NCBI GenBank assembly: GCA_012523705.1
Contig: JAAYTU010000011.1
Coordinates: 1 to 43,540 of the forward strand
Source: Clostridiaceae bacterium
Lineage (GTDB): Bacteria; Bacillota; Clostridia; DSM-8532
Direction of reading: 5' to 3'
Length of the DNA: 43,540 nucleotides
The position numbers and the translations under genes were made by a program. This document shows positions 29,701-33,612 of the stretch, in pieces. Every line of letters begins with the position of its first letter. Position 1 is the first letter of the stretch. Below the pieces are notes generated by a model that saw only the letters and a program-made list of their open reading frames with translations, was not told the DNA's origin and did not search any database.

Positions 29701-30063
29701 CTAAGCAGAACTCACACTGCGCTTTACAAATTTTGAACAGGCTTTTTTAATGCTCCCGTCACATTTTCTAACTGAAAACAAATCACAGACACCATAGGTG
29801 TTTATGTAATCATTAGGATGAAGAATAAAGAATTCACAGTCACTGCAACGATAAGAACTATGCTTTCTGATTTCGTCCTTAATAAAAAACCGATGAGATG
29901 AGCAGCGATAATCCTCAGATACTATACCCTTTTCCCAGCAAAGGATTTCCCTTGTTAAGCCTGTAGGTCTTCCCTTAACACAGTTTTTGCAGGATTTCCT
30001 TTTCTTTTTAACAGGCTTAGCGGGTTTACCCTTTTCCTGTATGCATTGGCTCATGTTCTTCAT
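29701..30063 (-). CDS. Cys-rich small protein with two CxxC modules, unknown function
   Basis: 120 residues with ten cysteines (7, 25, 28, 42, 54, 73, 76, 93, 101, 109). Two similar modules can be drawn: C25-x2-C28-x13-C42-x11-C54 followed by SSHRF, and C73-x2-C76-x16-C93 with C101/C109 followed by SKF. They resemble tandem zinc ribbons, or less likely iron-sulfur sites. The N-terminus is strongly basic (KPAKPVKKKRK). No signal peptide or membrane segment. The ATG at 30063 has GAAGGGCGG rather far upstream; ATG at codon 4 is an alternative. It is 104 nt upstream of the aldo/keto reductase and possibly in one operon. I do not recognise a named family. Confidence 0.72.
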   Translation of the reverse strand: MKNMSQCIQEKGKPAKPVKKKRKSCKNCVKGRPTGLTREILCWEKGIVSEDYRCSSHRFFIKDEIRKHSSYRCSDCEFFILHPNDYINTYGVCDLFSVRKCDGSIKKACSKFVKRSVSSA

Positions 30064-30185: not shown

Positions 30186-30213
30186 TTGTATTTGATTATT
30201 GATGGGGTATAAT
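30186..30213 (+). promoter_or_regulatory. Promoter upstream of DUF402 gene
   Basis: TTGTAT (30186-30191), 16-nt spacer and perfect TATAAT (30208-30213), 35 nt before the start codon. It probably drives the DUF402 gene and the following gene, 3 nt behind it. The 184-nt divergent gap shows nothing else. Confidence 0.65.
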
Positions 30214-30247
30214 AAAATTAAAGACTTATACTGATGAGGTGTAATAT

Positions 30248-30733
30248 ATGGTAAGAATATTCCGAAATAGATTTATTCCTTTGGAAACTATTGACTTAAC
30301 CTCAGATGAGTTGCTCTATCGCGATGAATACTATCTCATTACAAGATGGACTCCTATAAAACCAAGGAAAGATATTGCAAGTGGTATTTCTTGTGTCTTC
30401 TTGAAAAATGGCTGGAAGATAAGTGCATTTAAAGATCTGAATAACTTAATTGCATATTGGTATTGCGACATTATTGATATAGAGCATGATAACGATACCG
30501 ATACATATTTACTGAATGATTTACTTATAGATATTAGGATAATGCAGGACGGGAAAGTGGAAGTAATCGATCTGGATGAACTGGGGACAGCCTTTGAACA
30601 AGGGCTTATTACCAAAAATCAGCTTTTATCTTCTTTAAAAAAGAGTAATGAATTATTAAGCATAGTCTATAAGAATGATATAACAGCTATGGTGAAGGAC
30701 ATAATACTGAAGCATACTGGTATTGGAGTGTGA
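30248..30733 (+). CDS. DUF402-domain protein (putative nucleotide phosphatase)
   Basis: 161 residues. The middle matches the DUF402 fold: WYCDIIDIE (71-79), then YLLNDLLIDIRIMQDGKVEV, then IDLDELGTAFEQGLI with clustered acidic residues (D91, D95, D108, D110, E111). Characterised DUF402 proteins, such as Ntdp of staphylococci and FomD, are metal-dependent hydrolases of nucleoside di/triphosphates or of a nucleotide adduct; activity here is inferred from the family. Cytosolic, no signal. ATG start with GATGAGGTG upstream. The ParB-like/BMP gene follows 3 nt later, which implies a joint role. Confidence 0.8.
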   Translation: MVRIFRNRFIPLETIDLTSDELLYRDEYYLITRWTPIKPRKDIASGISCVFLKNGWKISAFKDLNNLIAYWYCDIIDIEHDNDTDTYLLNDLLIDIRIMQDGKVEVIDLDELGTAFEQGLITKNQLLSSLKKSNELLSIVYKNDITAMVKDIILKHTGIGV

Positions 30734-30736
30734 ACT

Positions 30737-32692
30737 ATGGCTATTGATATGATTGAATATCTAAACGCCAGAAAGATGGGTATCAAGGAGTATTCTCATT
30801 ATGTATCACAGGGTCGCAATGGATACCTGCCCTTTTTAGACGGAGTTTTAGAGAATATTGATATTGTTTCCGAAGTGGATTTAGGGATTGTAGATATTCC
30901 TCTGAGGAAGGTTAAAGGCACCTATGCATATCTAAGGAGCATATCATTTGCTCGCAATTATATGCCTATTATGGATGTCAACTCTGAATTTGCTGTAAAG
31001 TGGCAGCAGGTTTACTCCATTCAATGCAAAGCGGGGCTGGCAGACCCCATAAAGGTCTACGAATACTTGAACTGGTACTATGTAATTGAAGGAAATAAAA
31101 GAGTAAGCGTTTTAAAGTATGTGGATGTTTATTCTTATCCAGCTAAGGTAACCCGATTAATCCCCAAATACGACGAGAACAACAAGGATATCCGAATCTA
31201 TTATGAGTTTATGGATTTTTACAAGAAAACTGGTATTAATGATATCTGGATGTCCAATGAGAAAAGCTTCTCTGAACTCTGGGAGATCATTAAAGACTAT
31301 AAGCCCAAGAGCCGTTTTGTGGAGGAAGCTGAAAGGTTTAAATATTTTTCAAGTGCATTCTACTATAATTTTAGAAAAGCCTTTTATGATTTGGGTGGAG
31401 ATGAATTACCCATTACTACGGGAGATGCCTTCCTGGACTTTTTAAAGATTCATGGAATAGAGGAGGAGTTTTCCGAAGATGAGTTTAAGGATAGAATATG
31501 GAGACTTCTTTCTGAGCTCAGATACTATTCAGGTCAGGAGGCCGTAGATATCCAGCAGGTTCCCAAACTAAAGACTCAGAAAAGCTTCATCGGAAAAATA
31601 ACCAATTGGGGACATGCTGAAAAGCTGAAGATAGGATTTGCACACTCGTCAAACAGTAAGACCTCAAGCTGGGTATACTCCCATGAGCTGGGACGAAAGC
31701 ATTTAGAGCATACCCTGTCCGATGGTGTGGAGACTGTAACTGTATCTGATCTGCCCGAAAGCAGCGATGCTGTTCCCATACTACAGAAAATGGTTGATGA
31801 TGGATGCAATATAATATTTACTACCTCACCTGCACTTTTGAAGCCAACCCTTAAGGTGGCAATGGATAACCCCGGATGTAACTTTCTCAACTGCTCATTC
31901 CTTCATTCCTTTAAGCATGTTAATACCTATTTCGGGAGGATTCACGAGCCAAGGTTTTTAAGTGGAATCATTGCAGGAGCCATGAGCAGAACCAGCAAGC
32001 TGGGATATATTGCACCAATCCCCGAAGTAGATATATTAAGCGGGATTAATGCCTTTACCCTTGGAGCAAGAATGGTAAATCCGGGTGCGGAGCTTAATAT
32101 AAAGTGGCTTGAATTGATTGGTGAAGAAATTGACACGGCCCAGGCCACAAGAGAGCTGGCTGAGCTAGGGATTGATATTATTTGTCATCATAATACCCTG
32201 GTTGATCGTTCTTTTTCAAAGGAATACGGGGTGTATACCATAAAAGAAAATGCTGACGGGAATTACGAGCCCGAGAATTATCTTGCGGTACCAATATGGA
32301 ACTGGGGTATTTTCTACGAAAAATATATAAGAAGTATTCAGGCTGGTGGAACGCGTCTGGGCGTCGGGAATCTGGATGTAGGAAGAGTTCGTAACTATTG
32401 GTGGGGCTTAGATTCAGGTCTGTTAGACTTTTTCTACGCAAAAAGCAAGGTGCCCCCCGAAACTAGCAGATTGATAGAGTTAATAAAGACAGCATTTATT
32501 TCACGCAGCTTTAATGTTTTTGAGGGACCAATATATGACAATAAAGGAGAATTAATTGTGGGAGAGGGAGATGAGCTTCTTAGAGAAGCGATTCTGTCAA
32601 TGGATTGGCTGGTAAATGGAATAACAGGCGAGATACCTGACAAGTCCAAGTATGGGACAATTAGTGACTTAAGCACAGGAAAGATTGTCTGA
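30737..32692 (+). CDS. Cytosolic BMP-domain protein with ParB-like N-terminal segment
   Basis: 651 residues. The C-terminal part (about 296-600) resembles the BMP/PnrA family of purine-nucleoside-binding proteins: LKIGFAHSSNSKTSSWVYSH, CNIIFTTSPALLKPTLKVA, RFLSGIIAGAMSRTSKLGYI, INAFTLGARMVNPGAE. Classical BMP proteins are lipoproteins of ABC importers; this one has no signal peptide or lipobox, and no permease lies nearby, so it should be cytosolic. The first 145 residues resemble ParB/Srx-type domains: DIPLRKVKGT, then WYYVIEGNKRVSVLKYVDVY with the G-x2-R motif. Residues 150-290 are helical linker. It is coupled to the DUF402 gene (3-nt gap). Related 650-residue proteins annotated as BMP occur, as I recall, in Lachnospiraceae. 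Nucleoside sensing is inference. Confidence 0.8.
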   Translation: MAIDMIEYLNARKMGIKEYSHYVSQGRNGYLPFLDGVLENIDIVSEVDLGIVDIPLRKVKGTYAYLRSISFARNYMPIMDVNSEFAVKWQQVYSIQCKAGLADPIKVYEYLNWYYVIEGNKRVSVLKYVDVYSYPAKVTRLIPKYDENNKDIRIYYEFMDFYKKTGINDIWMSNEKSFSELWEIIKDYKPKSRFVEEAERFKYFSSAFYYNFRKAFYDLGGDELPITTGDAFLDFLKIHGIEEEFSEDEFKDRIWRLLSELRYYSGQEAVDIQQVPKLKTQKSFIGKITNWGHAEKLKIGFAHSSNSKTSSWVYSHELGRKHLEHTLSDGVETVTVSDLPESSDAVPILQKMVDDGCNIIFTTSPALLKPTLKVAMDNPGCNFLNCSFLHSFKHVNTYFGRIHEPRFLSGIIAGAMSRTSKLGYIAPIPEVDILSGINAFTLGARMVNPGAELNIKWLELIGEEIDTAQATRELAELGIDIICHHNTLVDRSFSKEYGVYTIKENADGNYEPENYLAVPIWNWGIFYEKYIRSIQAGGTRLGVGNLDVGRVRNYWWGLDSGLLDFFYAKSKVPPETSRLIELIKTAFISRSFNVFEGPIYDNKGELIVGEGDELLREAILSMDWLVNGITGEIPDKSKYGTISDLSTGKIV

Positions 32693-32736: not shown

Positions 32737-33612
32737 ATGGTATATGATGTAATTGTTATAGGAAAAGGTCCGGCAGGGATATCAGGTGCTATTTATTCTA
32801 CCAGAGCAAATTTGAAGACTTTGGTGTTAGGTAAGTTAGACAGTATGCTGCTTAAGGCCGACAAAATAGAAAACTATTATGGATTCGAAAATCCTATAGG
32901 GGGAAGGGAACTTCTTGAAACTGGGCTCAAACAAGCTGAAAGGCTTGGGGCAGAGATAGTTGAGGAAGAAGTAGTCAATATAGAAAAAACAGAAAACTTT
33001 AATATAATAACTGTGGATGGCCAATATGAAGCAAAAACCGTCCTTTTAGCAACGGGAGCGCCCGTTGTACGGGTACCCATTAAAAACCTTGATAAATATG
33101 AAGGAGCAGGTGTCAGCTATTGCACCACCTGCGACGGTTTTTTCTATAGGAATAAGAAGGTTGGGGTGCTTGGATATAATGACTTTGCAATTCATGAGGC
33201 AGCCGATTTGTTGAATTTCACACAGGATATTACTCTTTTCACCAATGAAATGGAGTTAAATGTTTCTGACAACGCAAAGCCTGTAATAGAGAAGCTCAAG
33301 GTAAACAACAAGAAAATCAAGGAGTTAGGCAAAGGGGATATCCTTGAGGAAATTGTTTTTGATGACGGAACCGCCGAGGACATCGAAGGCCTGTTTATTG
33401 CATTCGGCAGCGCTTCTTCTACAAGCTTTGCCCTAAAGATGGGTATTGTTACAGACGGAAAATCTATTATTGTAAACGAAAAGATGGAAACAAATATTCC
33501 TGGCCTCTATGCTGCCGGGGACTGTACAGGTGTTTTTAAACAGGTAGCAGTGGCTGTGGGACAAGGTGCAATAGCAGCGCGGGAGATGGCCGCCTATATC
33601 CGAAAGAAGTAA
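32737..33612 (+). CDS. Thioredoxin-reductase-like flavoprotein lacking NADPH motifs (FFTR-like)
   Basis: 291 residues. FAD motif GKGPAGISGAIYSTRA (9-24), redox-active C129-T-T-C132 in SYCTTCDGFFY, and the C-terminal FAD motif GLYAAGDCTG are all present, so it reduces a disulfide, probably thioredoxin. The NAD(P)H domain is degenerate: where TrxB has GGGDSA this has GYNDFA (146-151), and the HRRxxxR motif is replaced by FTNEMEL. This is the pattern of the ferredoxin-dependent flavin thioredoxin reductases described from Clostridium. The electron donor is therefore predicted to be ferredoxin, not NADPH. ATG start with ATGGGGG upstream; own promoter, terminator behind. Confidence 0.88.
   Translation: MVYDVIVIGKGPAGISGAIYSTRANLKTLVLGKLDSMLLKADKIENYYGFENPIGGRELLETGLKQAERLGAEIVEEEVVNIEKTENFNIITVDGQYEAKTVLLATGAPVVRVPIKNLDKYEGAGVSYCTTCDGFFYRNKKVGVLGYNDFAIHEAADLLNFTQDITLFTNEMELNVSDNAKPVIEKLKVNNKKIKELGKGDILEEIVFDDGTAEDIEGLFIAFGSASSTSFALKMGIVTDGKSIIVNEKMETNIPGLYAAGDCTGVFKQVAVAVGQGAIAAREMAAYIRKK

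Follow-up and report, generated by a model that had tools for sequence, protein, structure and literature searches.

What does a BMP/PnrA-like protein do when it lacks an export signal and carries a ParB-like segment at its N-terminus, and with which neighbor does it act? The question is raised by a 651-residue protein encoded in a 43,540-nucleotide stretch (hereafter, the window) of contig JAAYTU010000011.1 from a Clostridiaceae bacterium (assembly GCA_012523705.1), where its gene directly follows a gene for a DUF402 protein. An earlier note, made from the DNA letters alone, had read the two genes as a cytosolic pair that senses a nucleoside or nucleotide and acts on nucleotides or DNA. Our analysis points to a different partner. 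At the level of sequence comparison, the unit is shown to consist of a metallophosphoesterase (MPE) and a protein of the ParB/Srx fold whose C-terminal domain is exchangeable, being BMP in the window protein and ferredoxin-like or a short tail in its relatives. The features of the window that bear on this finding are:

30248-30733, + strand: DUF402 protein of 161 residues (Pfam DUF402, E = 1.5e-12)
30737-32692, + strand: fusion protein of 651 residues with ParB/Srx-like, helical and BMP parts, the core of the finding
30863-31171, + strand: ParB/Srx-fold domain, residues 43-145 (VIA-align structure matches)
31088-31102, + strand: EGNKR motif, residues 118-122, the equivalent of the ParB P-motif GERR and of the SerK-type DGNHR (hhalign)
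31172-31531, + strand: helical domain, residues 146-265 (structure model; alignment to the stand-alone family A4)
31619-32641, + strand: BMP/PnrA-like domain, residues 295-635, of the AtzT type and without an export signal (PDB profile, VIA)

Fold and architecture of the fusion protein

Pfam recognizes Bmp at residues 298-545 of the fusion protein (E = 1.9e-22) and nothing in residues 1-290. The N-terminal region was approached through structure, with a separate model of residues 1-280 built from 70 homologs (predicted local distance difference test score, pLDDT, 88.7) in addition to the whole-protein model (pLDDT 80). In VIA-align, residues 46-144 matched Srx (6ky4; Z 8.5, 81 aligned residues, 2.6 Å), Noc (7ol9; Z 8.4), ParB with CDP (7bnk; Z 8.2), SerK (Z 7.0) and SbnI (Z 6.4), Z values that are to be considered middling; Foldseek matched the N-domain model to Noc with E = 1e-4. 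The clear structural matches were exclusively to these five kinds of protein and to no other fold. The pentapeptide E118-G119-N120-K121-R122 is at least 95% conserved among 101 homologs, and hhalign places its GNKR on the GERR of ParB and on the GNHR of a family of stand-alone relatives (alignment A4, see below). The likeness to the ParB-CTPase fold (ParB, Noc, SerK, Srx) thus comprises the fold over residues 46-144 (Z 8.2-8.5 for the best matches) and a GxxR phosphate motif at the same place. Profile comparison connects the alignment of the fusions (A2) with A4 (E = 6e-18) and A4 with canonical ParB (E = 4e-7); compared directly with canonical ParB, A2 gives a weak match (probability 12.5, E = 0.0023), with GNKR again falling on GERR. 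Because all clear matches agree, the motif is placed correctly and the profiles are linked through the stand-alone relatives, we consider the ParB/Srx-fold assignment of residues 46-144, as predicted from the models, to be firm. The earlier note had suspected such a segment within residues 1-150 from a ParB-like G-x2-R motif, and both the motif and the fold bear it out.

The ParB/Srx part is the most conserved region of the fusion, and the linker and helical parts are the most variable. It has no match to Pfam ParB_N (PF02195) up to E = 1; the window genome encodes two separate ParB_N proteins (C22 and C136). Two other matches, to Shiga toxin A chains in the search of A2 against PDB profiles (E = 1.3) and between residues 62-241 and a glycosidase-like protein of genome G136 in the class-level search, were dismissed as chance.

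The BMP half aligns end-to-end with AtzT (6pi5, E = 4.9e-76) and with the Brucella protein 3s99 (E = 1.9e-72) in sequence profile searches, and residues 291-634 of the whole-protein model superpose on both with Z 34 (VIA). Unlike these proteins, the fusion carries a ParB-fold domain and lacks a signal peptide, a lipobox and a nearby ATP-binding cassette (ABC) permease. By hydropathy, it contains no signal peptide or transmembrane segment, with a maximum over 19 residues of 1.06 compared with 2.4-2.8 in stand-alone BMP lipoproteins that bear a lipobox, and none of 108 fusion homologs has a strongly hydrophobic segment (family maximum 1.78). No ABC permease gene was found among the neighbors read in the window, and none recurs around 80 homologous loci from other genomes, in 5 of which there is one ABC ATPase cluster. 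Pfam, the PDB profiles and the structure models therefore agree with the earlier description of a cytosolic-looking protein in which a BMP domain is fused behind a ParB-like segment. In Collinsella aerofaciens, for instance, the public annotation reads “BMP family ABC transporter substrate-binding protein”, a name that is very likely wrong for such proteins because of the missing export signal, the missing permease and the presence of the ParB-fold domain.

AtzT binds guanine (dissociation constant KD 110 nM) between Tyr45 and Trp194, with contributions from Ser97, Glu165, Asn218 and Asn220 (PMC6834077). The pocket of the window fusion contains W312, S364, D432, H484 and N486, of which W312, S364, D432 and N486 match the guanine contacts or replace them conservatively. 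Trp occupies the position of AtzT Tyr45 in all 108 fusion sequences; the window clade mostly has Ser at position 97 (S364), an acidic residue at 165 (D432), Asn at 220 (N486) and His at 218 (H484), the last as in 3s99. Judging from these residues, purine binding by the BMP domain is plausible in the window clade, and a different ligand is likely elsewhere.

A ParB fold combined with an AtzT-type BMP domain would also suit a ParB-like DNA-binding regulator gated by nucleoside triphosphates (NTPs) and equipped with a purine sensor, that is, a PurR-like repressor assembled from other parts, for which the MPE would be an ordinary target or neighbor. The periplasmic-binding fold does serve cytosolic repressors such as PurR, and LacI family proteins appeared in the structure search with the whole-protein model. 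However, Pfam detects no helix-turn-helix domain in the fusion, the matches of the helical part (residues 146-265) are weak and mixed (Z about 5), and the ParB C-motif QPRK is absent from the fusion alignments A1 and A2. The part of the earlier note that had the pair acting on DNA is accordingly unsupported, and we give a regulator of this kind very little credence.

The conserved neighbor of the fusion gene

The distribution of the fusion was traced across 291 genomes sampled evenly from the class, some of them incomplete, and in 80 named loci (L035-L114), which are the best 80 of 584 relative-encoding stretches (matches to the BMP half included) from a degenerate scan of named genomes and not a random draw; all 80 are full-length, and some overlap with genomes of the class sample. 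Full-length homologs, down to 30% identity, are present in 27 of the 291 genomes, and many other genomes of the class match the BMP half alone, in the form of ordinary substrate-binding proteins. In the window genome, the fusion is a single-copy gene. The named loci come from Clostridiaceae, Lachnospiraceae, Thermoclostridium, Caloramator, Lacrimispora and others, and one full-length copy was found outside the phylum, in Collinsella aerofaciens (Actinomycetota; L192, 3989-6612).

The one constant neighbor of the fusion gene encodes an MPE some 200 residues long. In 74 of the 80 named loci, the MPE gene is found immediately 3′ of the fusion, and one other locus stops 416 nt past the fusion. Of the 27 sampled genomes, 25 share this arrangement; the window departs from it, and in the other exception the contig breaks off within the gene. 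The MPE gene is convergent with the fusion in Clostridiaceae-type genomes and co-directional in Lachnospiraceae-type genomes, with a separate flip in L017/L052, and in C. aerofaciens the two genes overlap by 4 nt. The adjacency that is kept through these inversions argues for a functional link between the two proteins and, because it is kept even where the genes are convergent, against the MPE being a simple operon target of a regulator. Across the 291 genomes, 27 contain the fusion, 29 contain the MPE and 26 contain both (Fisher 1e-32, before allowing for kinship). Given that such P values ignore kinship, the better evidence comes from the inversions and from matches at the family level, where the presence and absence of the two genes coincide exactly in families f26 and f42.

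The metal-ligand motifs that the partner MPEs share with calcineurin-like phosphoesterases (YfcE family, MPPED2), namely GD, GNHD, H and GHxH, are 95-100% conserved in 100 partner MPEs, and a close homolog of the MPE from the window genome (contig C107) matches Pfam Metallophos with E = 9e-10. The partner MPEs differ from those enzymes in the first motif, which is D-x-E instead of D-x-H in 94 of 100 clostridial sequences (D-S-E in the window genome), and in that none of the curated models matches above its cut-off.

The gene pair singled out by the earlier note has a more restricted distribution. The open reading frames of DUF402 and the fusion are both real, matching Pfam DUF402 and Bmp, and lie on the + strand 3 nt apart, as described; in locus L002 they overlap by 4 nt, and the arrangement recurs through the window clade. 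Moreover, characterized DUF402 enzymes hydrolyze nucleoside di- and triphosphates (PMC11602121, citing work on Ntdp and FomD), in keeping with a functional unit made up of a nucleoside-sensing fusion and a nucleotide-hydrolyzing DUF402 protein. However, DUF402 flanks the fusion on its 5′ side in only 8 of the 80 named loci, all from the window clade. Four genomes (G073, G125, G149 and G172) encode the fusion and lack DUF402 altogether, and two (G193 and G272) have DUF402 and no fusion; in G193, the gene order is rpoC, the Cys-rich gene, DUF402, MPE, hisI and hisE, and no fusion gene separates DUF402 from MPE. This distribution rules out DUF402 as the conserved partner. In addition, although the window DUF402 is a true member of the family that includes the nucleotidases Ntdp, FomD and RNase W, it retains two of the three universal Mg ligands (N404, D420 and D424 of PfRNase W), namely D91 and D95, with the Asn replaced by C73/D74 in a low-score alignment; because one metal ligand appears to be replaced, activity cannot be assumed.

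On the strength of these comparisons, the conserved functional partner of the fusion is predicted to be the MPE, and DUF402, by its distribution relative to the fusion, appears as an operon add-on of the window clade only. The coupling claimed by the earlier note holds within that clade and fails beyond it, where the MPE is the constant neighbor instead; from its cytosolic nucleotide-sensing pair, the permease-free BMP and ParB/Srx fusion with plausible purine-like sensing is retained, and DUF402 as the partner is not. The DUF402-fusion unit could survive as a clade-specific add-on, but as the functional unit we judge it quite improbable.

The gap left by the fusion between the intact DUF402 and MPE genes of G193 (L115, 4088-4178), which belongs to the same genus, provides a natural comparison.

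Stand-alone relatives and the exchangeable C-terminal domain

A search of a phylum sample of 398 genomes with the N-domain profile identified stand-alone relatives of about 315-340 residues in classes outside Clostridia. These proteins (A4) consist of ParB/Srx and helical parts, mostly with the motif DGNHR, and a C-terminal Cys-rich domain that in most loci is clearly ferredoxin-like, of the 4Fe-4S type (Fer4, E = 2.5e-13 in L133). The same MPE family is encoded directly beside the gene in 13 of 13 A4 loci (L123-L135) and in two loci where the protein ends in a short tail (L141 and L190). The MPEs beside the stand-alone relatives are, where compared, 42-56% identical to the same family, and those beside ferredoxin-type partners likewise lack the His of D-x-H. 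Among the 398 genomes, 25 have the N-domain, 25 have the MPE and 23 have both; in G291, G306, G583, G604 and G669, the MPE has no ParB-like gene beside it within the stretch covered. The MPE searches across the 291 class and 398 phylum genomes found no long frame that fuses the MPE to the ParB-like protein.

In the stand-alone relatives, the helical region resembles DUF4032 (PF13224) over the C-terminal half of that domain (E = 1.6e-6 and 2e-6, above the cut-off in L130 and L133), and the same region aligns with the helical domain of the fusion. The window protein itself is not matched by DUF4032, such that the homology runs through the stand-alone family.

These relatives bear on the main rival explanation, under which the two proteins form a metabolite kinase/phosphatase pair: the ParB/Srx domain would phosphorylate a small molecule in the manner of SerK and SbnI, the MPE would dephosphorylate it, and the BMP or ferredoxin domain would regulate the process. 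The constant presence of a phosphoesterase fits this scheme, as do the fold matches to SerK and SbnI (Z 6.4-7.0) and the stand-alone relatives, which carry DGNHR and match the SerK model (E = 6.5e-4 and 1.4e-4), albeit below the cut-off. The BMP fusions, however, carry EGNKR instead of DGNHR, and the scores against the SerK model are all far under the cut-off. Catalysis by SerK and SbnI depends on a Glu near the start of the domain; an inspection of A2 and A4, without a formal alignment, showed no conserved Glu in that place. We regard a kinase/phosphatase pair as unlikely.

Two further groups of ParB/Srx domains were encountered. Proteins of about 125-169 residues that consist almost entirely of the ParB/Srx domain, with DGHHR (L136, L137, L139, L140 and L142), have no adjacent MPE and form a separate group; in two of these loci, a glycerol-kinase-like gene adjoins. 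The protein gp57 of Bacillus phage G (L191, 19024-19632) contains a ParB/Srx domain with DDGNHRLSVAK that is structurally related to the N-domain (Foldseek E = 6e-8). It was rejected as a phage version of the pair, the translated gp56 and gp58 not being MPEs.

Possible mode of action and relation to known systems

The reading that we favor, and whose chances of being right or wrong appear to us evenly balanced, is that the 651-residue protein and the MPE make up a conserved module of two genes in which a ParB/Srx nucleotide switch with a C-terminal sensor controls the MPE or exchanges substrate with it. From the computed features (the architecture, the fold, the adjacent and co-occurring MPE gene, and the exchange of the BMP domain for another C-terminus in other lineages), we infer the following mechanism. 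The ParB/Srx domain would use its GNKR phosphate motif to bind a nucleotide and would work as a switch rather than as a clamp on DNA. Related to the purine-binding lipoproteins but intracellular, the BMP domain would report a purine base or some similar small molecule, its ligand probably differing between clades; with a ferredoxin-like C-terminal domain, the redox state would be sensed in place of the purine. The fusion would then control the MPE, or supply its substrate or receive it, and the MPE would hydrolyze a phosphoester, most likely that of a nucleotide. DUF402 would have joined this operon in the window clade only. A broader version, under which this is a widespread signaling pair whose ParB/Srx switch and exchangeable sensor control a dedicated D-x-E MPE acting on a nucleotide or a nucleotide messenger, with the purine or redox state setting its level, is possible and is offered here tentatively.

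Several ParB-fold fusions bind CTP, ATP or GTP, according to a 2025 survey of the ParB-CTPase fold (PMC12704722). A number of observations weigh against the two-gene module as described. The same survey reports that 17 of 28 ParB-fold proteins tested bound no NTP. Asn120 of the fusion replaces the catalytic Glu of the ParB GERR motif and also stands, conserved in the family, where Srx has its catalytic Cys (GCHR); hydrolysis or other catalysis by the N-domain is therefore doubtful. The BMP pocket is AtzT-like in part only: where AtzT has the second stacking Trp, Trp194, the window copy carries Ile461, and in copies of the Lachnospiraceae type several contacts are changed, with Gly common at position 165, Lys at 194 and Asp at 220. 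As to the gene pair, 5 of the 80 named loci have no adjacent MPE despite sufficient flank, G193 has no fusion yet retains both MPE and DUF402, and one genome has, apart from its MPE-linked copy, a second copy of the fusion with no MPE beside it (L032, 3661-5553; G260:C30). In the window genome itself, the MPE is unlinked from the fusion, being located on contig C107 (1748-2350), which is why the earlier note could not see it. This MPE is still accompanied by hisI and hisE, as in sister genomes, so a local rearrangement is the simplest explanation for the split.

With respect to known systems, all parts of the module are known folds, and the ParB-CTPase fold is known to acquire fused domains in a lineage-specific way (PMC12704722). 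That survey searched with PF02195 and reports many fusions; the BMP fusion and the MPE pairing are absent from its main text, and it would probably miss domains of the window type because PF02195 does not detect them. In the open literature, to which our search was confined, we found no paper that combines ParB with BMP-domain or phosphoesterase terms, and none that does so with DUF4032; other hits, judged by title and abstract, deal with no such protein, and the MPE partner was not found noted there previously. The fusion proteins are common in gut and thermophilic Clostridia, and the ParB-CTPase fold is a newly recognized class of nucleotide switch, of which this branch is missed by the Pfam model on which that survey relied. 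With its constant phosphoesterase and its swappable sensor, the pair, which is small and looks soluble, provides a direct handle on the function of a ParB-type switch that is not chromosomal.

Several minor features of the locus complete the picture. The promoter of the DUF402 and fusion genes, called good in the earlier note, did not hold up: a perfect TATAAT at 30208-30213 is accompanied at best by a −35 element TTGTAT that matches at 3 of 6 positions, with a 16-nt spacer, and the promoter scan listed no + strand site in the region and found 4 sites in all, compared with 9.6 expected by chance. The only structured RNA in the window is tRNA. Next to the displaced MPE (L034, 1-2350; G000:C107) are, from a look at the sequence, a GntR-like regulator and an ABC transporter ATPase. 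In the window, the position that the MPE occupies in sister genomes is taken by a thioredoxin-reductase-like flavoprotein (32737-33612, + strand; TRX_reduct 230 bits, under the cut-off of 343). Upstream of DUF402, and divergent from it, is a gene for a Cys-rich protein of 120 residues (29701-30063, − strand) that has no convincing Pfam or NCBIfam match and is kept near the same place throughout the window family (L002-L011, L035-L044 and L112).

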